Below, one piece after another: positions 13,188 to 34,212 of a stretch of 37,759 bases of DNA (within the stretch, counting starts at the first letter, position 1; each line of letters opens with the position of its first letter). Source of the DNA: Candidatus Zixiibacteriota bacterium (GTDB taxonomy: Bacteria > Zixibacteria > MSB-5A5 > SM23-73-2); the NCBI GenBank assembly GCA_030615745.1, contig JAUWYR010000023.1:1-37759 (forward strand), in the 5' to 3' direction. The position numbers and the translations under genes are program-made. The notes under the pieces were generated by a model that searched no databases, was not told the origin of the DNA, and saw only the letters and a program-made list of their open reading frames with translations.

Positions 13188-14123
13188 TTAAAATCTCATA
13201 CTCAAAGATAAAAATGGAACAAGCTCTCTTTCATATTCAGCCAATCTCACCTTCATTCTGATCGCTGAGAACCGTTCCCCTTTTTTGTTATAAGATCTTG
13301 CGGTTAGGGCAGCGTCGAATGCTGAGAGCACATGATTAGCTAAAGATGCTATCATGGCATACTTTGCTCTATCAAAGAGCCTGTTGGAATGTTTTCTCAT
13401 TTCCCAATAATACAAGCGAAGCAGAGTCCAATATTCTCTATCATATGGATTATAATCCTCCCAGCCATATCTGAACTGGTCATATTTACCAATCATCTCA
13501 TAATATTGCTGATCCTTGGAATCAGACAACCAGTGGGTGATCCATATAGTGTCTGATTTGTCTAAGCTTGGTAGTTTGTAGGTGCTGTCTTTTTGTAAGG
13601 TTAAGACGGTGTCTCCATATATTAACAATAATTCCTTCTCATAACGGTTTCTGTCCCAGTATTGGTCAGCCCAAGCCTCATATTCATCCCTTTTATCCGA
13701 GCCTCTTTTATGATAGCCAAAATAACCTGCCCAGAACAACGCCTCCAATCCCAAAAACAGACCCGCCTTTATTTTGGAATTAGAGTAAAACTCCCCTGCC
13801 CCAGGGAGAACAAAAGAATACAAAAAAGCCTTTTTTATGGACTTGCTTTTAAAAGCATATACATCCTCAAATATATCCTCTTCCTCCTCTCCTTGAGCAA
13901 GATAAACTCCTAAATTCTCTGAGCTGAAATGAGTCAATTTATAAAGATTTTTTTGACGAATCATATCATTTTTAACAAAATAGTTCCGAATAGAATTAGA
14001 TTCGAAAGTCCCTGTAAGATTTGCTGAGATAGCTTTATTGTAAGGGAATAAAAATATCAAAATAAAAAAACTGAAAACTGAAATTTTAAAAACTTTTGCG
14101 GAAGCATCAAGAGATTTTGACAT
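13188..14123 (-). CDS. DUF5683-like exported protein (first of tandem pair)
   Basis: A 311-residue paralogue of the following gene, with a signal peptide (about 14-34). The core YSFVLPGAGEFYSNSKIKAG followed by FLGLEALFWAGYFGY is the DUF5683-like pattern. A long Tyr/Asp/Trp-rich central region and a C-terminal ASLANHVLSAFDAALTAR segment follow. It begins 24 bases after the M6 protease gene and probably belongs to the same transcript as the PorU/PorV-like genes. A role in assembling or anchoring exported proteins is suggested only by this context. Confidence 0.6.
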   Translation of the reverse strand: MSKSLDASAKVFKISVFSFFILIFLFPYNKAISANLTGTFESNSIRNYFVKNDMIRQKNLYKLTHFSSENLGVYLAQGEEEEDIFEDVYAFKSKSIKKAFLYSFVLPGAGEFYSNSKIKAGLFLGLEALFWAGYFGYHKRGSDKRDEYEAWADQYWDRNRYEKELLLIYGDTVLTLQKDSTYKLPSLDKSDTIWITHWLSDSKDQQYYEMIGKYDQFRYGWEDYNPYDREYWTLLRLYYWEMRKHSNRLFDRAKYAMIASLANHVLSAFDAALTARSYNKKGERFSAIRMKVRLAEYERELVPFLSLSMRF

Positions 14124-17100: not shown

Positions 17101-17351
17101 GATTGAACTCTTATCGCTAAAATTTTAATTCTTTTCGGCTCAGGTGTTTTTTTGCTCAAGATGGGAAGTCCATAAGGATGCACACGCTCTAACCCAAGAA
17201 GGTTTCTTTTTGAGACATCGCTTTTGAAAGAAAAAGAAGGCTTTTTCTCTTCGATTTTCTTTACTGAAAAGATTTTAATTCTTTTTGCCAGAGCTAAATT
17301 TAAAAAAACCAAAAAAATAATCAAAAAGTTTAAAAAAAACTTAATCTTCAT
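14148..17351 (-). CDS. secreted M6-family metalloprotease with FG-GAP repeats and sorting domain
   Basis: A 1067-residue exported protease. Order: signal peptide (1-22), propeptide-like region, M6 (immune-inhibitor-A type) catalytic domain (about 90-420), repeats with DxDxDG calcium loops of FG-GAP/VCBS type (about 560-960), and a C-terminal sorting-like domain (about 985-1067, starting VYPNPAKEKAIIRY and with KIYDLAGDLV). The zinc motif is HEFGHQLGLVD, with His283, Glu284, His287 and Asp293. The C-terminal domain is of the type IX sorting/FlgD-like fold. The start overlaps the stop of the PorV-like gene by one base (TGATG), so a likely substrate is coupled to its putative secretion proteins. 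Confidence 0.85.
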   Translation of the reverse strand: MKIKFFLNFLIIFLVFLNLALAKRIKIFSVKKIEEKKPSFSFKSDVSKRNLLGLERVHPYGLPILSKKTPEPKRIKILAIRVQSQKEEPDDPTTTGDGQFDLKSYQQFYDSAHHIIDPAPHNRAYFEAHLKALANYWWIVSKGKVLIDSFDVYPKGDTAYTLPYTMSHYGSLDSAPDPFNFPVDQLDSFFRHSFKLADTSSLDQIDFSLYKSFVLFHAGSDRQHDLGGWGPEPTPSDLFTGFIIFGEPLLVGERPDTIWDGLIIPETCSQDNRITALNAVFAHEFGHQLGLVDLYNTQTFITQVGDFSLMDNNAQNVGVEGLDSCFTYPTGILPVYPDAWSKAFLGFISPVEKRNKEHMRLFASELLTGEIQMIKVPINSFEYFLIENRQVDLDGLPYPWLDRDSLSGVFLGLSDTTHNNQREYDYLLPGSGILIWHVDEGVAYLDHDGDGIDNFSENQLQLDKDRRFIALEEADGIIDFGGNYYTGFGLQEDMYYRGNNSSFTPYTYPSTRSNNKSFTHIWVTNIGLSDKIMDLDIKNEWDQPGWPQIAVPIKQVSSLVFADVEKDGFPEIFAVSGNFIYAWRADGSGLIENSDSVEKVGLNGEITRFPLATFDDIDTSFFGLPSLGDLDGDSILEVVAGTEDGRLYAWEAKDENQDGKADLLSGFPVKVGMKVSMTPVIADFDEDSSGLEIYVGTEEGVLTLISSNGSKIHSENYSEKIVGLATTDSSLVNFVVTESEKEGHIRRTDSDDSITLLSSNNSYPVVGDLDRDGSLDVIVVGGDGKIYALNKELNFLAGFPVETNEKKLSSPCLGDIDGNGYLEIVTCGENKIFAYNFNGAPTENFPIVLDKGVFTPSSELLVSSPILTDVDIDGYIDVIVGISDYKIVAYNRSGEKVSGFPLCCGGKVNGTGIFLNLDDDDKAELLASSDDGFIYAWELPWSYQEENNFWVMEGFDPAHTKSYPNEFLPDAPEFEFMPRDLVYVYPNPAKEKAIIRYFLGKEAQIDIKIYDLAGDLVDKLFDFGEANISNETIWDCSKFASGVYLCRVEAKAEDEKKVVFCKLALVK

Positions 17352-19930
17352 CAGAATCTACCTGTTAAAGAAAATCTCATGGTGTTGGTCAGAATATCAT
17401 CTCGAGAGGAAGGGATATAGGCAAAATCGAATCTGAAGACATTGTATTGCAAGCCTGCGCCCAAGGTGAATGCCTCTCTAACTCCAGCTTTATCATATAG
17501 GTAGCCTGCTCTTAGAGCGAAAAAGTTAGCATACCAATATTCCATTCCAGCGTTCAGAATCGCTTCATTCTCCACCATCTCATAATTTACTTCACCCAAC
17601 AAAGTTAGCCTATTGTAAGGGGTATCGAATAAGCGATAACCCAATCCTGTGCCCAGATTAGTTGGCAAGGGGTCACCTTGCGCATAATCCGAATATGAGA
17701 TATCAGGTCCCACGTTGGTGAGAGCAACACCCAATCTCAATCTTTTTATAGGAGTCTGGTATAAAATTCCAGCATCCAGAGCAAGTGAGATTCCTGTTCC
17801 CTTACCCTCGGAAGGTCCTTCCCCGCTCCTATATCCTTCAGCAGCTAAGTGGGAATGGATTATCTTGGCATTGAGTCCTCCAGATAATTCGGTAGTGAGC
17901 TTGGTTCCATAGGATAGGGTGAGTGCAGTCTCGTAACTTTGGAAAGTGCCTAATGGCTCACCTATCTCCGATGTCCTCTGCATCTCACCATAAGACAAAA
18001 AGGTTATATTTCCTCCAAAAGATCCCCATCCCTCAAAATGTTGAACATAAGAGAGATATTCATAATAAAGGTCCAAACCGAACTCAGGTAAAAGATTGGT
18101 ATGCATAAAGGTCATCTCCCTTTTCGCATGAGCATAGATCACCACTTTATCCTCTGTTACAAACCAGAGTTCACCATCCATCTCTTTTATATCGTAAGTC
18201 TTAGCTTTTCCAAGCCCTATATGATGATATCTATTCCAACTTGAACCATCGAATTTTAATGTGCCGAATTGGGTCCCCACATATATTCCACTTTTGCCAA
18301 AAGGACAAATCGATAAGATTTTGCTTCCGGTTGCATTATGATAAACATAAATTTTCTCCTCTGGCTCTAAATCCTCTGTCTTTAAATTATTATACTCAGT
18401 AATTCTTTTTACAAGCATTTGGACCCTTTTAGGGTCTTTGGTATGAAGAAATTTCTGTGCCACATCAACTACTTTCTCTTTTTCTTTTGCGGTATATAGC
18501 TTATAACCGAAATTTATCCATCGCCCATCTGCAAAGGCTTTAATCCCCATCAAAGTCCCTACCCATAAGGTTCCGCTTTTGTCCAAGGATAGAGCTGTGA
18601 TCTCTGAGTTTATCCCCAGATGATAGGGAAGCTTGAGATTCTGGCCTAAAGAGAGGTCTTTATCTTTCAAAGCATTTGTTTTTAAAACCGCTTTTTTTAC
18701 CTTTTCTATCCTGTTTTGGTTCTCTGACCCTATAAATCTTTTAACTATTTTGTCCAGATCATCTCCGCTCTTAACAGTATACATAAAAAAAGGCTCCCAC
18801 TTTCCATTTTCAAATCTCGCCAGACCTCTTTTAGTCGCGACCCAGAGTTTAGCCTCTTTTTCAACCACTATCTGGGTTACAAAATTATCCGGCAAATTTA
18901 GACCAACAGAATAAAACGTCCATTTTTTCCCATCAAATTTAGCTAATCCTGAGCTTGTACCTGCCCATATAGTGCCTCTGTGAGTCCTGGTTAAAGAAGT
19001 TATATTTTCATCCAAAAGCCCATCTGAGGAACCATACCTTTTCCACACCATCCTATCATAGCGGAAAAGACCAGATTTAGTTCCTATCCATAACTCCTTA
19101 CTACTTGAGATGATGGTGGTCAAACTTTCTGAAAGGGCTAAGCGGAATGGTATCTTTACTTTTTCAGCCAGAAATTTTTGTGTGGATGTCTCCAAAAGCA
19201 TTGAAATCTCATCCAACTCCTTCGATGAAAGATTTGTATCTGCTAGAAAATCCTTGACCTTGTGGTCCAACTGAGCTAAAATCTGTTGATTTAAAAGGCA
19301 TTTCTCCCAGCTTTCAAGAACTTTCTCAAACAAACTGTCCAAAAAAGAGGTGGCTTGGTAATCTGGAGGTAAAAGCTCTTTGATCTTTGTTCTTATTTTT
19401 TCAAGGGAGTCTTTATCTATGAAATTGTTTTCTGTAGCCACCTTATAAGTCATCTTTTTTTTCTTTTCCTCGTCTTTTTCCTGGGTCAATTTTATTACGA
19501 TGCTTTCAACAGACTCACCCGGGGTGGTAGGATAAGTTTTATAATTTACCCACTTTTTCCCATTCCACAAAAGAAGATCAGAAAAACTTATCGCCCAGAT
19601 ATCATAACCTTTGAAATTCCTTTCTGGGAGCTCATTTTTTAAAAGTGCTATCTTTTTTATTTTGAATTCTTCAGGAATTACATATTCAAACCACTCCTCG
19701 GTCAAAGGATATGTGCCTAATCCAGCTGGGTTCCAGTGAGTTGCTGTGGCATCATCAGATAAAGCAATAAAAGACTCACCCATCCCAGCAGCTCTTGCTC
19801 CGGCTGGAAGAGTCAAAAATAAAACACCTGCTTTGCTAACAGCTAAAATATCTTGTGCCAAAAAGAAAACTAAAATTATTCCTAACGAAATCGTCAAGAT
19901 GCTCCGCAAAATAAAAACTGATTTTTTCAT
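17351..19930 (-). CDS. PorV-like barrel with inserted propeller and LysM-like segments
   Basis: An 859-residue exported protein. Residues 1-30 are a signal peptide. Residues 35-72 carry the PorV/PorQ (UPF0164) start: FLTLPAGARAAGMGES, then DDATATHWNPAGL. The outer-membrane barrel resumes only at about 617-859 and ends in Phe (SLTGRF). Between them are two-component-regulator-type propeller blades (LWIGTKSGLFRYD near 280, IWAGTSSGLAKFD near 321, LWVATKRGLARFE near 362, LWVGTLMGIKAF near 455, IYVGTQFGTLKFD near 549), a helical stretch (about 140-260) and two LysM-like segments (about 383-435 and 477-530). PorV carries substrates to the sortase PorU in T9SS. I chose the ATG at 19930, with GGAGGT just before it; an upstream TTG is less likely. 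Confidence 0.8.
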   Translation of the reverse strand: MKKSVFILRSILTISLGIILVFFLAQDILAVSKAGVLFLTLPAGARAAGMGESFIALSDDATATHWNPAGLGTYPLTEEWFEYVIPEEFKIKKIALLKNELPERNFKGYDIWAISFSDLLLWNGKKWVNYKTYPTTPGESVESIVIKLTQEKDEEKKKKMTYKVATENNFIDKDSLEKIRTKIKELLPPDYQATSFLDSLFEKVLESWEKCLLNQQILAQLDHKVKDFLADTNLSSKELDEISMLLETSTQKFLAEKVKIPFRLALSESLTTIISSSKELWIGTKSGLFRYDRMVWKRYGSSDGLLDENITSLTRTHRGTIWAGTSSGLAKFDGKKWTFYSVGLNLPDNFVTQIVVEKEAKLWVATKRGLARFENGKWEPFFMYTVKSGDDLDKIVKRFIGSENQNRIEKVKKAVLKTNALKDKDLSLGQNLKLPYHLGINSEITALSLDKSGTLWVGTLMGIKAFADGRWINFGYKLYTAKEKEKVVDVAQKFLHTKDPKRVQMLVKRITEYNNLKTEDLEPEEKIYVYHNATGSKILSICPFGKSGIYVGTQFGTLKFDGSSWNRYHHIGLGKAKTYDIKEMDGELWFVTEDKVVIYAHAKREMTFMHTNLLPEFGLDLYYEYLSYVQHFEGWGSFGGNITFLSYGEMQRTSEIGEPLGTFQSYETALTLSYGTKLTTELSGGLNAKIIHSHLAAEGYRSGEGPSEGKGTGISLALDAGILYQTPIKRLRLGVALTNVGPDISYSDYAQGDPLPTNLGTGLGYRLFDTPYNRLTLLGEVNYEMVENEAILNAGMEYWYANFFALRAGYLYDKAGVREAFTLGAGLQYNVFRFDFAYIPSSRDDILTNTMRFSLTGRF

Positions 19931-19952
19931 AAGACCTCCAATCAAACTATTT

Positions 19953-19972
19953 TCTATCTCTTGATCTTCGAT
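19953..19972 (-). repeat. 20-bp repeat copy upstream of the PorV-like gene
   Basis: Read on the minus strand this is ATCGAAGATCAAGAGATAGA. Identical 20-mers occur at about 23803-23822 (minus strand, inside porU) and 24324-24343 (plus strand, upstream of porU). This copy lies in the porU-porV gap, about 25 bases upstream of the PorV-like start codon. Confidence 0.7.
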
Positions 19973-20036
19973 AAGCTTTTTAAAATAAAATATAATCCAT
20001 TAAATTTCTTCGGCAAGGGGTAGAAAAAACTAAAAT

Positions 20037-23000
20037 TCAATGCATCACCACCATCTTACCGAAAGCCTCTGCTTTTTTTCCACCTCCTTTTATTTCTCCA
20101 AAAGCAACTATTTTGTATATATATACGCCGTTTGCCACAAAATCTCCATCCTGGTCTTTTCCATCCCAGAATACAAGGCCTTGTGAATTGGACAACGAAC
20201 TAATTGTTCTGATTAACTTCCCGGCCAAGGTATAAATTTTTATCTCCACTCTTTCCACCTCTCCTAAAACCCTATACCAGAAATAGGTATTCTCGGAAAA
20301 AGGATTAGGGTAGTTCAAAACCTCTGTGATTTTAAAATCCGAGCTCGAAAAAAGACCAAACTTAAATTTTTTCAAAGATGAGTTGTTGAAATTATCCCAG
20401 GCTTTTACTTTTAAAAAATGCTCTCCGGGTGAAAGCCCGGATAATCGGTAAAAAATCGAGCCTCTCTGATAGTTGTTAACATCGTATTCGAAATTATCTG
20501 TGAGTTCGATTTGACTTTCCCAATCATCATCAAAAATCAAAGTAATTCCATGCCCTACCTCACCGGTGAGATTGATCCCGCTCGAATCAAAAATATCTAA
20601 AATCATAGTTGCTCCAAGTCCAACAAAATCTCCTTCCTGAAAATCTGGATAACCCGAAAAGCTTAACTTTATCTCCGGACCCAAAGTATCGACAAAACTG
20701 GTATCGGAGCCCCAGACCACCAAGGAATCTAAAGCTCCCGCTCCATCTGTGGAAAAGTCCTTTACAACGTATACGCTTAATCTCGCAGTGTTACCTCCAT
20801 AGCTTATGTCCTTAGGAACAAAAAAGCTCGCCTCAAATTCACCAGATTTTACCTCCACATTTCCTCGAAAGATAACCTGCCCTGAAATATCATAGGATAA
20901 AATCGACTCATTGGGCGCCAGATGAGACCTTTCTTTATTGCAATCGAATGCCAAAATATATGCAACCCCTGAAAAATCCTTCTTTAAATTCCCCTGCTGA
21001 TCTGTTACTTCTCCTTTAAAGCTCGTCAATTTAAGTGCAGACAAAGTATCTGGGTTTACATCCTTTATTTTCACCAAAAGTTCAGGAGAAGCTAATCTAA
21101 TAGAAGGGTCTCCTAAAAGAACATAATATCTATCATTATAATTTGACTTTCTGGAAAGTTTTGCTGAAAAAAGCGCCTCTCCAATCTTCATCTCTGATTC
21201 TAATAGGTAATCGTAAAAAGCATAGTTCAACTGTGCATTAGCCCCAGCCGAAACCAAACCTGTTGATGAGATCACTCCTATTGCTCCTTTTGATTCAACT
21301 CTTACTAAATCCTCAGCCATAGATTCTTTTAAAGGGTTGAAAAATATAGCGTTTGAACAGGTGGCTGAGAATACCAGTGGATACATTCCCTTGTTTTCCA
21401 ATCTTGGAATATCCTCAGCCCTTTTAAATACCTCCTCATGAGCCCATTGCTGTGTGTTTCCATGACCGATCCAGTTGAGCAGAACTGTTCCATCATTAAA
21501 TGCATCCACAATAGCGTCTCCAACCTCAGGCTTATGCCCGTTCACATCAAAAGGAAAATCCAAAAGGTAGATTTTGTTTAAATTAAAAGAGTTGGGTATA
21601 TGAGATTTTGATAAAGTCTCTGTATCAAGGGTGTGATAACCCCATAAGGGATCAGTCTTAGAATACCCAGCATTGAAATCGTCAGCAACTAATGTTACAC
21701 TATTTCGCCATTTTCCGAAAACTGGGTCTTTCTCATACTCTAAGATTTTATCAACAAAAGCTTTTACCTCAAAACCAGATTTTGCCGGGAACCTACCGAT
21801 TATCATATCAACTTCACCTTCTGAGTCAGAATCCAAATCTCCCGGTTTTCCAAAATATACGAAATTGTCATCTGAAACCGGGAAATATGCCACAAAGGGA
21901 GGAATCTTGCTTTTTGGACTTACACCTAAATTGTTCTTATAATCGTAGTTTCCATCACCGACCAAAAGGACAAAGCTTGGTCTGGGGGATTGCCAATACT
22001 GAAAGCTAAATTTCAGAAAATCCCTTATTGCAACAGGGTCGAAAAGCCCCCAGGAGAACTCATCATAGATATCAGTTACATCGATTATTTCAACCTCACT
22101 ACCTTTTTCTTCTTTAAAATTCTCATATTCAGAAAGGTATTGGTAAAAATCAGGATGAGTTATCACCAGGATGTCTGCTTGATTTAAAGGCTGTTTCAAA
22201 TTAGATTTACTATCGAAAGTAATTGATTTAGGATGAATAAAATCATCCCCAGATAAAAGATAATATCTTTTTTTACTTTCATTTTTTAGTTCATCTTGAA
22301 ATTTCAAGGTATCATTTTCAAGCTGAAAACCCTTTATCTTTTGTGGCTCAAACCTATCTGTTATCTCAAAAAGAAGAGAACAAGCAGAGGTCACGCCTGA
22401 AATCTGATATTGGATAACCCCGGATGTATCAGGTGATTCGAATAAAAGTTTATTTTTTTCTGCTCGAAATTTTTTCATATACTCGATCTCATACCAGTCG
22501 AAATAGACAGAATTTTCGAATTCAAAATATATTCTGTTCTTACCATCTATTAAACGATTGGATATGGCATAGGTGATATTATCAGTTGAATCTAAAAGTA
22601 AAGCATCTGTTTCATTAACCTTTATATTCTCAGCGTAGGCGGATCTGGCTTTGACTTTTATTATCGCATCTTCACCAACTTCCACATTGGTCAATGTATC
22701 ATAATGAGAAAAAATATTATTTCTAGATTCATACCAGTTAAAGTAATCTCTAATATATCCACCTGATACATAAACCTCATTTTCTTTCTCTTGAAAGACT
22801 CGGTCTTTAAATTTTTGGGGGACGAAAAAATTAGTTGGTTTTAAGCTACCATCACCATCTTTTATTCTTTTGGCTGAATCAGGAAAAGACCCTGAAAATG
22901 TAATCCAGAAGATATTCTTATCGGTGTAATGGTTTATGTAATGCTGATATTCACCTTTAGATGTGTCATATTCCCAGTTATTTACGCCCCAGCCGTAGAA

Positions 23001-23996
23001 GAGGATATAATCATCCCAATCAAATTTTTCATCCTCCTCCCCAAAGACTTTTATTGATAATTCTTTTAATTCCGGTCTGGGTTTAGAATTGTCCAATGGA
23101 AGCTCCTTGCCACCACCATTGAAAATCCTTATCTTTTTCGGGTTTATTCCATCCACATCTATTCCAGCATTTTCCAGATCAGATCGGTCTATTTTATAGA
23201 CTCCCTCATTTTCAACCTCGATTTTATACCAGAAATCTGAGAAAAAAAATGGAGATTCACCATATGTTTTGAAAAGTGTTGGTTTCTCTCTTTTTTTACG
23301 GAATGCCTTTGCCTTTTGATAATTCAAAAGTATTGTCTTATAGATTTTTTCAAAAGGCTCTTTTCTCTCAGTTGGCTTTTTTTCAAAAGCTTTTTTACCC
23401 AAAAACTCTAAAGCCAAAGTCATAGACTCATAGAACCTTATTTTTTTCTTTTGTGGATTGAACTGAACCGGATTTATCATTACTCGCACAATTCTCTGAT
23501 CTCTTATCCAGAAAGGAGTCTCCAATTTTAGGATATCTTCTGGATAAAACTTATCTTTGGTATAAGTTTTTTGATCCTCTAAGAAAATAGGGGTTCCTAT
23601 CTCATCTAAATCGTAATGAATCTCAGGAACAGGGGCAATAAATAAATCAGAAAACTCTTTATATTCGTAGTTTAAAACTCTTACTTTAATTTCACATCCT
23701 GAAGGTATTCCTAAAATCACAATCCTTTGAGGCAACTGAGGTTTACCAGTGCTTTCGTTCTGGGCGCAATTGGGAATTCGAATCAAATCATAGGTTTTTT
23801 TATCTATCTCTTGATCTTCGATTTTTATTTTAAAAGTGGTAAATTGTGGAACATTATATTGAAATAATACCCCATCCTCATCAGATCTTAAAAGCTCAAT
23901 ATCCGGGTATTCAGATGAGGCAAAGGAGGTTATAGTAGAAAATCCGAAGGATTCATAGAATATCAAAAAAAGAATAATTACAAGCCTATAGTTCAT
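20037..23996 (-). CDS. porU: PorU-like C25 (gingipain-type) peptidase with sorting domain
   Basis: About 1319 residues. After a signal peptide (1-18) comes a long beta-rich N-terminal region (to about 600). The peptidase C25 domain (about 620-960) has LLVGDGNYDY, catalytic His845 in WIGHGN and Cys880 in SATCSNA, 35 residues apart as in gingipains. Ig-like domains follow, then a C-terminal FlgD/T9SS-type sorting domain (from LNYPNPF to the end). In Bacteroidota PorU is the cell-surface sortase that removes sorting domains and works with PorV; porU and porV are neighbours there too. A plain secreted gingipain is the alternative. The start is uncertain: ATG 23996 gives a clean signal peptide, but in-frame GTG 24029 and TTG 24059 also exist. 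Confidence 0.78.
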   Translation of the reverse strand: MNYRLVIILFLIFYESFGFSTITSFASSEYPDIELLRSDEDGVLFQYNVPQFTTFKIKIEDQEIDKKTYDLIRIPNCAQNESTGKPQLPQRIVILGIPSGCEIKVRVLNYEYKEFSDLFIAPVPEIHYDLDEIGTPIFLEDQKTYTKDKFYPEDILKLETPFWIRDQRIVRVMINPVQFNPQKKKIRFYESMTLALEFLGKKAFEKKPTERKEPFEKIYKTILLNYQKAKAFRKKREKPTLFKTYGESPFFFSDFWYKIEVENEGVYKIDRSDLENAGIDVDGINPKKIRIFNGGGKELPLDNSKPRPELKELSIKVFGEEDEKFDWDDYILFYGWGVNNWEYDTSKGEYQHYINHYTDKNIFWITFSGSFPDSAKRIKDGDGSLKPTNFFVPQKFKDRVFQEKENEVYVSGGYIRDYFNWYESRNNIFSHYDTLTNVEVGEDAIIKVKARSAYAENIKVNETDALLLDSTDNITYAISNRLIDGKNRIYFEFENSVYFDWYEIEYMKKFRAEKNKLLFESPDTSGVIQYQISGVTSACSLLFEITDRFEPQKIKGFQLENDTLKFQDELKNESKKRYYLLSGDDFIHPKSITFDSKSNLKQPLNQADILVITHPDFYQYLSEYENFKEEKGSEVEIIDVTDIYDEFSWGLFDPVAIRDFLKFSFQYWQSPRPSFVLLVGDGNYDYKNNLGVSPKSKIPPFVAYFPVSDDNFVYFGKPGDLDSDSEGEVDMIIGRFPAKSGFEVKAFVDKILEYEKDPVFGKWRNSVTLVADDFNAGYSKTDPLWGYHTLDTETLSKSHIPNSFNLNKIYLLDFPFDVNGHKPEVGDAIVDAFNDGTVLLNWIGHGNTQQWAHEEVFKRAEDIPRLENKGMYPLVFSATCSNAIFFNPLKESMAEDLVRVESKGAIGVISSTGLVSAGANAQLNYAFYDYLLESEMKIGEALFSAKLSRKSNYNDRYYVLLGDPSIRLASPELLVKIKDVNPDTLSALKLTSFKGEVTDQQGNLKKDFSGVAYILAFDCNKERSHLAPNESILSYDISGQVIFRGNVEVKSGEFEASFFVPKDISYGGNTARLSVYVVKDFSTDGAGALDSLVVWGSDTSFVDTLGPEIKLSFSGYPDFQEGDFVGLGATMILDIFDSSGINLTGEVGHGITLIFDDDWESQIELTDNFEYDVNNYQRGSIFYRLSGLSPGEHFLKVKAWDNFNNSSLKKFKFGLFSSSDFKITEVLNYPNPFSENTYFWYRVLGEVERVEIKIYTLAGKLIRTISSLSNSQGLVFWDGKDQDGDFVANGVYIYKIVAFGEIKGGGKKAEAFGKMVVMH
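23803..23822 (-). repeat. 20-bp repeat copy inside porU
   Basis: On the minus strand this is ATCGAAGATCAAGAGATAGA, identical to the copies near 19953 and 24324. Here it is coding and gives the residues IEDQEI near the porU N-terminus. Confidence 0.7.
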
Positions 23997-24009
23997 AAAT
24001 TTTTTTAAT

Positions 24010-24062
24010 AAAAAAACCGAGTTTTTCACAAAAATTCCAAAAGCACTCGGCTTGACCAAGCC
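24010..24062 (-). promoter_or_regulatory. candidate attenuator hairpins in the porU leader
   Basis: On the minus strand a tight hairpin GGCTTG-GT-CAAGCC (24062-24049) is followed by CCGAGT (24050-24045) and ACTCGG (24022-24017), which can pair and are followed directly by seven T residues (24016-24010). The second structure looks like an intrinsic terminator placed 14 bases before the ATG at 23996. The two hairpins share two bases, so they compete. The loop of the second is long (22 nt), so it is only moderately stable. It lies about 110 bases downstream of the promoter at 24181-24208. Confidence 0.4.
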
Positions 24063-24180
24063 TTGAGGTTAATAGTCAAAGGTACTCTCATTCTAACAGA
24101 TAATCTTTTATTAACGAAAACTCATTTTTAAAAACCTTTAACTATTTTCCTATAGACCTTTCCTTTTTAACTTCTCTTTT

Positions 24181-24208
24181 ATTATACGTTAAACTTTTAA
24201 TTTGTCAA
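24181..24208 (-). promoter_or_regulatory. sigma70-type promoter for the porU operon
   Basis: On the minus strand TTGACA (24208-24203) is followed, 16 bases later, by TATAAT (24186-24181). Both hexamers match the housekeeping sigma factor consensus exactly and spacing is one base short of ideal. Transcription would begin near 24173, giving a leader of about 115-180 bases before the possible porU starts. It is the best promoter I can see in the window. Confidence 0.75.
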
Positions 24209-24323
24209 GATTTTTCTTTTATCTAAAGATAATTTAACTACCTTGAGTTTAGCAAGGGTAGAAAGTAGCGTTAGGGTAGAGATAGCGAAGATTCGGATAA
24301 AACTACAAAATCCGAAGGATTCA

Positions 24324-24343
24324 TCGAAGATCAAGAGATAGAA
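24324..24343 (+). repeat. 20-bp repeat copy upstream of porU
   Basis: Plus-strand copy of ATCGAAGATCAAGAGATAGA, identical to the minus-strand copies near 19953 and 23803. It is directly preceded by AAAATCCGAAGGATTC, which also occurs at about 23937-23954 inside porU. Confidence 0.7.
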
Positions 24344-24409
24344 TCTGTTTAATCTGTTGGGAATATATATGTACACCTATACACAGATTTCATCTGGACA
24401 AAAAACTCA

Positions 24410-24430
24410 ACTATGGACTATCGACTATTA
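24410..24430 (-). repeat. heptamer array, ACTATNN type (3 units)
   Basis: Three consecutive units on the plus strand: ACTATGG, ACTATCG, ACTATTA. On the minus strand the consensus is NNATAGT, with two variable positions before a fixed five-base core, the same design as the NNTAGGT arrays. It lies 35 bases downstream of the response regulator stop. Confidence 0.55.
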
Positions 24431-24464
24431 GCCATAAGCAATCCCACATAAACGGGGGGGAATT

Positions 24465-24839
24465 CTACCTGTCATAATTCAAAACCTTTTTCAAAAGTTC
24501 CTCGATCTCTTTTACTGTAAAAGGCTTGGTTAAAAATCCATCTGCTTTGGCGTCGTACACTTCTTTTTCAGTCGATGGTTTCTCATAAGCGGTTATAACA
24601 ATCACCGGCAAATCCGGAACACTCCCCTTGATCGACTTTAAAAGCTCCATACCATTCAACTTAGGCATCTTGATGTCAGTTATCACCATATCGAAATTCT
24701 GTGATTTTAGATATTTTAAAGCTTCCTCCCCATCATTTGCCTGGATACTTTTAAATTCGAAGATATCCAGGATATCTGATAAGAGATTTGCCATATGAGG
24801 ATTATCTTCAACAATTAACATCTTTTTATATCTAACCAT
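24465..24839 (-). CDS. stand-alone CheY-like receiver protein
   Basis: A 124-residue single receiver domain without an output domain. The acidic pocket is Glu11-Asp12, the phosphoacceptor is Asp55 (VITDIKMP), and the switch residues are Thr83 (VITAYEK) and Lys105 (LTKPF), so it should be phosphorylatable. Such proteins pass phosphate to or bind a partner rather than DNA. No histidine kinase is nearby, so its input and target are unknown. It lies 60 bases after hflX and directly upstream of the porU promoter region, which does not by itself link it to porU. Confidence 0.88.
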   Translation of the reverse strand: MVRYKKMLIVEDNPHMANLLSDILDIFEFKSIQANDGEEALKYLKSQNFDMVITDIKMPKLNGMELLKSIKGSVPDLPVIVITAYEKPSTEKEVYDAKADGFLTKPFTVKEIEELLKKVLNYDR

Positions 24840-24903: not shown

Positions 24904-26199
24904 CTATAAGAAGTGGAACTTAATCTTGCCATCAAAATTTTGAAGCCTCTTTAAACTCCACCTTTTCCCCCTGATTTTCACCTGAGTTTTTCTTTCCCCA
25001 ATTTTTTTTTCTGTTATAGTTCCAAATCTGTAAAGGAAAGATAAAAAACCGAGCTTGGAATTTTCAAGGACAACAACTCCCTCAACTATATCCTCAGATA
25101 AGTGTCTGTCTAAAAGATCTGTCAATTTCTCGATCCCCACACCTTGTTCTGCGCAGATAAAAACGAAATCAGAACCACAGGTTACATTCTGAACATAGGG
25201 GAAATCCCCATCCAGCTTATCGATTTTGTTGAAGACCATGATAGTGGGCGTCTCTTTTGAACCAAGCTCCGCTAAAACCTCGTTTGCCCTCTTTATCTGG
25301 TTTCTGAAATCCGGATGTGAAATATCCACCAGGTGCAACAAAAGATCAGCTAATCTGACCTCATCTAAGGTGGAGCGAAAGGAGGCGATAAGGTGATGTG
25401 GAAGCTTACGGATGAATCCTATTGTATCGGTTAATACTACATTTGCGGAGCATCTTGACGATTTTGAGAATTTTAAAATCCGGGTAGTGGAATCCAATGT
25501 AGAGAAAAGCTTTTTCTCCACAAAAACAGATGCCTCGGTTAGTCTATTAAAAAGGGTAGATTTCCCCACATTAGTGTAACCGACTAAACATATTTTAAAC
25601 AAATCCGCTCGATTTTTCCTCTGGATTTTTCTCTCATTATCTATTTTAACCAAGACCTTCTCTAAGTCAGCTATCCTTTTTCTGGTCTGACGGCGGTCAA
25701 CCTCCAGCTGTGTCTCCCCAGGACCCTTTGTCCCTATACCTCCATATTGACGTGAGAGGTGTTCCCACCTACCAGCAAGCCTGGGCAAAAGGTATTTTAA
25801 TTGGGCTAAAGCAACCTGAGTCTTAGCTTCTTTAGTTCTGGCTCTTTTGGCAAATATGTCTAAGATAAGAGATGACCTATCGATAACCTTCACATCTGTC
25901 CTGTCCTCAATATTGTAGATCTGAGCAGGGGAGAGGTCGTCATCGAAAATTATAATATCTATTTTTTCCCCTTCGCATATTTTTTTTATCTGGTCTATTT
26001 TACCCTTGCCAATAAAAAAGGCTGGGTTAAGCTTTTTTCTATCCTGAACAACTGTATCCACAACCTCAGCTCCAGCGGTTTCAGCTAAAAGCTTAAGCTC
26101 AGCCAGACAATCCTGGTGGGTAAAGTCATCTATTGTGGGAAGCTTTACCCCTACTAAGAGGGCTTTTTCTTTTTGCTTAAAATCCTGAGTTTGGTACAT
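24904..26199 (-). CDS. hflX: GTPase HflX
   Basis: A 431-residue HflX: the N-terminal HflX-specific domain (about 12-185, with AEVVDTVVQDRKKLNPAFFIGKGK broken around the family glycines, and GGIGTKGPGETQLE at 153-166) followed by a GTPase domain with G1 GYTNVGKST (207-215), G3 DTIGF and G4 NKID. HflX binds the large ribosomal subunit and splits stalled or stress-damaged ribosomes. I chose the ATG at 26199 because CGGAGG lies just upstream; a TTG one codon earlier overlaps that site. Its neighbour RqcP-like S4 protein also acts on stalled ribosomes. Confidence 0.93.
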   Translation of the reverse strand: MYQTQDFKQKEKALLVGVKLPTIDDFTHQDCLAELKLLAETAGAEVVDTVVQDRKKLNPAFFIGKGKIDQIKKICEGEKIDIIIFDDDLSPAQIYNIEDRTDVKVIDRSSLILDIFAKRARTKEAKTQVALAQLKYLLPRLAGRWEHLSRQYGGIGTKGPGETQLEVDRRQTRKRIADLEKVLVKIDNERKIQRKNRADLFKICLVGYTNVGKSTLFNRLTEASVFVEKKLFSTLDSTTRILKFSKSSRCSANVVLTDTIGFIRKLPHHLIASFRSTLDEVRLADLLLHLVDISHPDFRNQIKRANEVLAELGSKETPTIMVFNKIDKLDGDFPYVQNVTCGSDFVFICAEQGVGIEKLTDLLDRHLSEDIVEGVVVLENSKLGFLSFLYRFGTITEKKIGERKTQVKIRGKRWSLKRLQNFDGKIKFHFL

Positions 26200-28868: not shown

Positions 28869-28982
28869 AGTGTGGTGTCTCTAACATTTCTTTACACTGT
28901 CATTGCGAAGCAATCTCTTGCCGGGATTCCTCGCAAAGCTAAGGAATGACAGGATAGTAAAGCTATTGTGAGACACTACACT
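28869..28982. repeat. 114-bp imperfect palindrome (MITE-like)
   Basis: The ends are AGTGTGGTGTCTC (28869-28881) and GAGACACTACACT (28970-28982), complementary at 12 of 13 positions. The arms also pair further in: CTTTAC near 28890 with GTAAAG near 28957, and TGTCATT near 28898 with AATGACA near 28945. The centre contains the TCATTGCGAAGCAATCTC sequence. From memory this inner sequence recurs in many uncultured bacterial genomes. It encodes nothing and fills the gap between two parvulin genes. Confidence 0.78.
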
Positions 28983-34150: not shown

Positions 34151-34177
34151 ATAATACGGCTTTTGCGTATGCATCAA
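34151..34177 (-). promoter_or_regulatory. possible promoter for mfd
   Basis: On the minus strand TTGATG (34177-34172) is followed after 15 bases by TATTAT (34156-34151), about 24 bases before the mfd start codon. Hexamers are close to the sigma70 consensus but the spacing is short, so this is a weak call. Confidence 0.3.
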
Positions 34178-34212
34178 GAGATAAGATTTTTTTCTAAACG
34201 GATAAAAAAAAC

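Follow-up and report, generated by a model that had tools for sequence, protein, structure and literature searches.

The short strings repeated around porU in the 37,759-nt window (the whole stretch of DNA analyzed, contig JAUWYR010000023.1 of the Candidatus Zixiibacteriota assembly GCA_030615745.1) appear, on comparison of sequences, to be members of a few-hundred-copy swarm of tiny repeats. The swarm looks like a private, recent burst of non-autonomous micro-elements. We are highly confident that the repeats constitute a dispersed, inserted family. That they spread by a single-strand hairpin mechanism is a tentative proposal, slightly less probable than its contrary, while the statement as a whole, namely that the strings are non-autonomous micro-elements with in-frame gene insertions and such a mechanism, strikes us as reasonably probable. 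The common view is that mobile DNA must be long enough to hold ends for an enzyme to recognize, and genes are as a rule free of short hairpin repeats; in this one species' lineage, units of 15–18 nt have spread to a few hundred copies, many of them in frame (murG, fmt, lpxD, murF, priA, glyS). If the units move as such, mobile DNA would extend to smaller sizes than known so far, and the units would represent a direct source of five- and six-residue protein insertions. Because empty sites have already been mapped in the congener, both the mechanism and the effect on proteins are testable.

The 20-mer ATCGAAGATCAAGAGATAGA is present in three exact copies at 19953–19972 (minus strand), 23803–23822 (minus strand) and 24323–24342 (plus strand), just where the preliminary description had placed them, and its judgment that three copies are unlikely by chance agrees with dinucleotide shuffles, which gave an expectation of 0.01 matches at up to three mismatches. 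It had also correctly read the copy inside porU as coding for IEDQEI, and the second string that it reported, the 18-mer AAAATCCGAAGGATTCAT, is indeed common to the porU signal region (23939–23956, plus strand) and the upstream copy (24307–24324, plus strand). The gene names hold: porU (20037–24059, minus strand) contains Pfam Peptidase_C25 and Propeptide_C25, and the porV-like gene (17351–19945, minus strand), with propeller and LysM parts, matches Pfam PorV. A protein with a type IX sorting tail is encoded downstream of these genes.

The minus-strand copies of the 20-mer are units of the family that we call B. The first, at 19953–19972, lies in the 5′ leader of the porV-like gene directly upstream of GGAGG and corresponds to a net gap of 10 nt with uncertain boundaries in the congener alignment; the second, at 23803–23822, lies in frame in the porU propeptide region and is a 15-nt insertion relative to the congener. 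The 18-mer is a unit of family A, which at 23939–23956 runs antisense in the porU signal region, reads YESFGFS in porU and is an 18-nt insertion. The intergenic copy at 24307–24366 is a three-module composite, absent from the preliminary description, in which an exact A unit (24307–24324, plus strand) is followed by an exact B unit nested in it at CAT^AGAA (24323–24342, plus strand) and by module C (AATCTGTTTAATCTGTTGGGAATA, 24343–24366, plus strand). Module C belongs to an older family that is common to the order and stands outside the double-hairpin swarm; with its variants (CCCAACAGATTAAACAGATT and others) it occurs as a text-like family across the order and parts of the class, often in tandem. 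A third family of the stretch, D, had likewise been missed: one unit (19890–19907, minus strand; exact family match) falls within the signal-peptide region of the porV-like gene and keeps its frame, the other (25445–25462, plus strand) is antisense yet in frame in hflX, named by Pfam, where it sits by eye between the TTR and DTVGFI motifs, and both are 18-nt insertions relative to the congener. Two further exact family matches are an F1c unit (GCGGAAGCATCAAGAGAT, 14098–14115, plus strand), antisense near the N-terminus of the ORF at 13188–14123 (minus strand), and an F1 unit (GCGTATGCATCAAGAGAT, 34165–34182, plus strand) between mfd and the next gene, where the congener flanks align loosely. 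We also observed an intergenic sequence, GCGAGGAATCCCGGCAAGAGATTGCTTCGC, at about 28905–28935; a near copy lies at C8b:18196. Although CAAGAGAT is common to this sequence and the swarm, the sequence seems to belong to an intergenic family of its own.

In all 2.28 Mb (74 contigs) of the species' own genome, a search for the 20-mer found seven exact copies and 21 near copies with up to three mismatches, compared to none for the reversed pattern, which bears out the suggestion of a small repeat family. The four exact copies outside the porU region are found in the accA leader, in murG, in a transglutaminase-like gene and before a small ORF, and near copies occur in fmt and glyS. The alternative that the string is a site bound by a regulator of type IX secretion genes draws on the 4.4 kb around porU and the porV-like gene, which hold three copies, but it is hardly credible in view of copies in the coding sequences of murG, fmt, glyS, lpxD and others in both orientations, and of the congener's porU region, from which the strings are missing. 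Four of the seven exact copies stand at unrelated genes, and the wider family is spread genome-wide, in either orientation and in every frame that is open. The genome-wide search that the preliminary description had proposed returned many scattered copies without a link to porU or porV, the very outcome it had named as speaking against such a link. We therefore rejected a type IX regulatory site, since copies occur in unrelated genes with varying orientation and frame rather than in association with type IX genes, and conclude that the copies at porU and porV have no special role there. The idea of a recombination scar has support only insofar as the copy at 24307–24366 lies within a synteny break (24220–24466) relative to the congener. 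At this break, between porU and a response-regulator gene, modules A, B and C are piled up; the porU side continues on G001:C83 and the response-regulator side on G001:C14 of the congener. Short-patch illegitimate recombination was also considered as a mechanism.

Module A is similarly dispersed, with 11 exact 14-mers and 42 matches at up to one mismatch genome-wide (control, 1), and 12-mer counts in a 347-kb sample revealed many short families. Searching nine of them with up to two mismatches yielded 69 distinct sites in the 347 kb and none for the reversed patterns; the swarm comprises at least nine related families of 15–19 nt. About 15% of the genome was read directly and the rest by searches; this sample is enriched, since its 15% of the genome accounts for 17 of the 60 exact F1-type copies, and we therefore extrapolate to a total of about 250 sites.

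As read from the sequence, the families share a common plan of two abutting mini-hairpins. The left hairpin is closed by C-G, with a loop that starts with G in nearly all families (GAA, GGA, GGAA, GGAC, GTAT), and the right hairpin is ATC-AAGA-GAT or a variant of it. Giving the left hairpin first, family B is C-GAA-G and ATC-AAGA-GAT; G is C-GAA-G and GTC-AAGA-GAC, so that in its right hairpin an A-T pair of B is replaced by G-C; F1 is GC-GTAT-GC and ATC-AAGA-GAT, with the other heads GGAC, GGAA and GAAT; F2 is CG-GTAT-CG and ATC-AAGA-GAT; D is GC-GGA-GC and ATC-TTGAC-GAT; and A is ATCC-GAA-GGAT and TTC-ATA-GAA. Calculated DNA folding energies of single units were weak and mostly no better than those of shuffles. 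GNA and GNNA loops with at least two G-C pairs form unusually stable, nuclease-resistant DNA mini-hairpins (PMC4686876), a description that D, D2 and F1c fit by sequence, with weak energies; the GAA loops of A, B and G are closed by fewer or mixed G-C pairs, and the loops of F1, F1b and F2 depart from the description. Three of the loop types are neither GNA nor GNNA.

Comparison with the congener G001, the only one compared (about 75% nucleotide identity), suggests that the units move. At the DNA level, we compared 25 sites with alignable flanks. Among the clear cases, net insertions of 18 nt were found for D (C55:19907, and 19890 in the porV-like gene and 25445 in hflX of the window), for F2 (twice in lpxD), for A in porU, for F1c at C8c:16302 and for F1b in murF; B (glyS, fmt and porU) and F2 (rsmH) each gave a net 15 nt, and the composite in murG a net 33 nt. 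The net 30 nt before accA corresponds to two B units in tandem. Every clear insertion in coding sequence is a multiple of three and in frame (murG, fmt, glyS, lpxD twice, murF, rsmH, hflX, porU twice and the porV-like gene). Family matches place three copies in priA. As expected of a mobile element, relatives have orthologous sites that lack the unit. The coding near matches at L012, L057 and L061, by comparison, aligned to the congener without a gap, which implies that part of the near matches are due to chance, old or replacements. The L057 site (1498–1515) is an exact A copy with substitutions and no insertion in the congener alignment, and may be a replacement or an older site. A repeat-blind survey of 115 kb, with a minimum length of 9 nt, counted 33 insertions for the own genome and 11 for the congener. 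The commonest own length was 18 nt, with eight cases of which seven are repeat units, and the congener had no 18-nt insertion in these 115 kb.

Insertion is likewise apparent at the protein level, where MurG carries 11 extra residues, SEGFIEDQEIE (A plus B), and Fmt a block around IEDQEI, each absent from five relatives. These blocks bear on the idea that coding stretches rich in lysine and glutamate became alike by chance or through composition. KIKR and EDQE, being ordinary low-complexity stretches, lend this idea some substance, and it applies to a few matches with two to three mismatches. As a general explanation its probability is close to nil, given that the blocks are missing in five relatives, that the reversed patterns return zero matches and that different sense and antisense frames yield different peptides. 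For the exact and one-mismatch copies, we rejected an origin by chance or composition on the zero counts for reversed patterns and the missing blocks.

Outside the species, the swarm all but vanishes. The F1-type string GCGNNNGCATCAAGAGAT has 60 exact copies here, one in the congener and none in 131 other genomes of the phylum, and the nine families together have two sites in 509 kb of the congener versus 69 in 347 kb of the own genome; at the thresholds used, neither A nor B was found in the congener or in order relatives. The single exact F1 copy of the congener belongs to a tandem pair directly before ruvC (L172:1485–1520 of G001) that reads YASRDAYASRD in an ORF; it was dismissed as a progenitor site, the same place here being without an F1 copy. 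The 20-mer had no exact match among IMG/VR viral contigs, on which ground we ruled out a phage origin. Contigs of other GTDB genomes returned one exact match, roughly the chance level, on a Rhodothermaceae contig with no other module around it, and a wide distribution was rejected on account of this lone match.

Further clues come from nesting and from junction bases. G units lie inside F1 units with three different heads, between the two hairpins, as well as inside D units, and B units lie inside A at CAT^AGAA; this nesting indicates that insertion occurred more than once and that composites were copied in turn. The base before the unit is T in 61/61 copies of F1, F2, B and D, and AT precedes all 13 of 13 B copies. 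The bases before the unit are able to pair with those after the left hairpin, unit ends are largely constant, and no target duplication beyond 1–2 nt was seen at the copies examined. A T before the unit without duplication fits insertion of a single-stranded hairpin. Under the mechanism that we propose, the unit would move as a short single-stranded hairpin that something, presumably an enzyme, copies or joins into DNA exposed as a single strand, as at a replication fork, for instance. Entry would be 3′ of T (of AT in the case of B), and any target duplication would not exceed 1–2 nt. Copies that break frame or function would be purged. With 15 and 18 being multiples of three and most reading frames of a unit open, copies would persist where they lengthen a loop, linker, terminus or signal peptide by five or six codons. 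A more specific version, in which a dedicated system spreads the 15–18 nt units by recognizing the double mini-hairpin as ssDNA and inserting it 3′ of T, is possible, though on balance doubtful; if true, they would rank with the smallest of all elements moving as defined units, and their lengths would allow them to be carried within genes.

Two other mechanisms could give rise to similar patterns. Hairpin-protected genomic fragments might be copied in without any enzyme, by microhomology or template switching in replication or repair. We regard this as somewhat unlikely, as constant unit ends and fixed nesting points are not expected of random fragments; consistent with it are that no mobilizer was found, that GNA/GNNA mini-hairpins are unusually stable and nuclease-resistant (PMC4686876), that d(GCGAAGC) is the head of D2, that the base left of the unit is able to pair with the base right of the left hairpin, and that the L057 A copy resembles a replacement without change in length. 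In-gene lengths cannot decide on their own, because survivors in genes are biased to multiples of three. The other mechanism, a special case of the single-strand hairpin reading with the enzyme named, is that the units are REP-like elements mobilized in trans by a Y1 (HUH) transposase such as RAYT, through hairpin recognition, cleavage beside a fixed short sequence and single-strand insertion without target duplication. The genome encodes three Y1_Tnp genes of RAYT-like length (L149, L150, L151), and the constant left-flank T, the lack of clear target duplication and the hairpin units are compatible with their involvement. Even so, we consider it quite unlikely: the inspected flanks of the Y1 genes carry other hairpins and none from the swarm families, the congener has six such genes without the swarm and other relatives have two to five, and the units occur within genes and have no GTAG-type tag. 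Specifically, L149 and L150 each have hairpins of their own on the flanks (GTAGGTCAGGAGCCCTGTGCTCCTGAC and TGTTGGTGCTGGATTTTTAATCCAGCAC), and the sequence beside the three genes consists of other hairpins or module C. RAYT was accordingly discarded as the mobilizer, its flanks and its copy numbers across relatives not fitting.

In the 347-kb sample, 41 of the 69 sites (about 60%) lie inside ORFs of at least 120 aa. Other repeats, treated alike, are mostly intergenic: with ORFs of at least 150 aa, families of the order relative G006 have 2/11, 0/9 and 1/11 of their copies inside and three text-like families from the own genome 2/11, 0/4 and 0/8, whereas the share in the swarm families ranges from roughly half to four fifths, with the exception of G (1/5). 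As G006 is about equally rich in short repeats, it is the location in genes that is unusual, rather than the richness in repeats. Separately, an apparent DDE transposase ORF (L185, about 1440–1540, by eye) contains an F1 unit together with the GC-rich repeat TCCCTGGCCGGGCAGGCA, which is found as an exact 15-mer at 11 places of the 347-kb sample, most of them intergenic.

Several known systems invite comparison. Fungal mitochondrial double-hairpin elements have two hairpins per unit and are thought to be mobile without an enzyme of their own; we liken the units to them by description only, on account of the two hairpins, whereas the fungal elements are organellar and longer. Cyanobacterial small dispersed repeats reportedly lie mainly outside genes, in contrast to about 60% inside genes here. 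They are otherwise similar, being described as repeats of about 20 bp that are possibly mobile (Elhai et al. 2008; PMC2884548, PMC3116915), and are again set beside the units by description only. REP sequences are 20–40 bp long and extragenic, with a conserved tag, and are associated with RAYT transposases (PMC3116915, PMC3733652). Our units share with REPs and REPINs the small hairpins, the many copies per genome and the presence of RAYT-like genes, but they are shorter, often lie in genes (41/69 sites, at odds with an extragenic location) and do not flank any of the three Y1 genes. Rickettsia palindromic elements (RPEs) are about 150 bp long and lie in frame in protein-coding genes (Ogata et al. 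2000, 2002; PMC10969869). The units resemble them as hairpin-forming repeats in frame in unrelated genes, with several families per genome and a mobilizer not identified, yet differ in length (15–18 nt versus about 150 bp), in their two mini-hairpins, in nesting and in belonging to an unrelated lineage; when the defining traits of RPEs were applied to the units, in-frame gene insertion was found and a unit of about 150 bp was not. The units hence combine the in-frame palindromic insertion of RPEs, than which they are far shorter, with the approximately 20-nt size of the cyanobacterial repeats.
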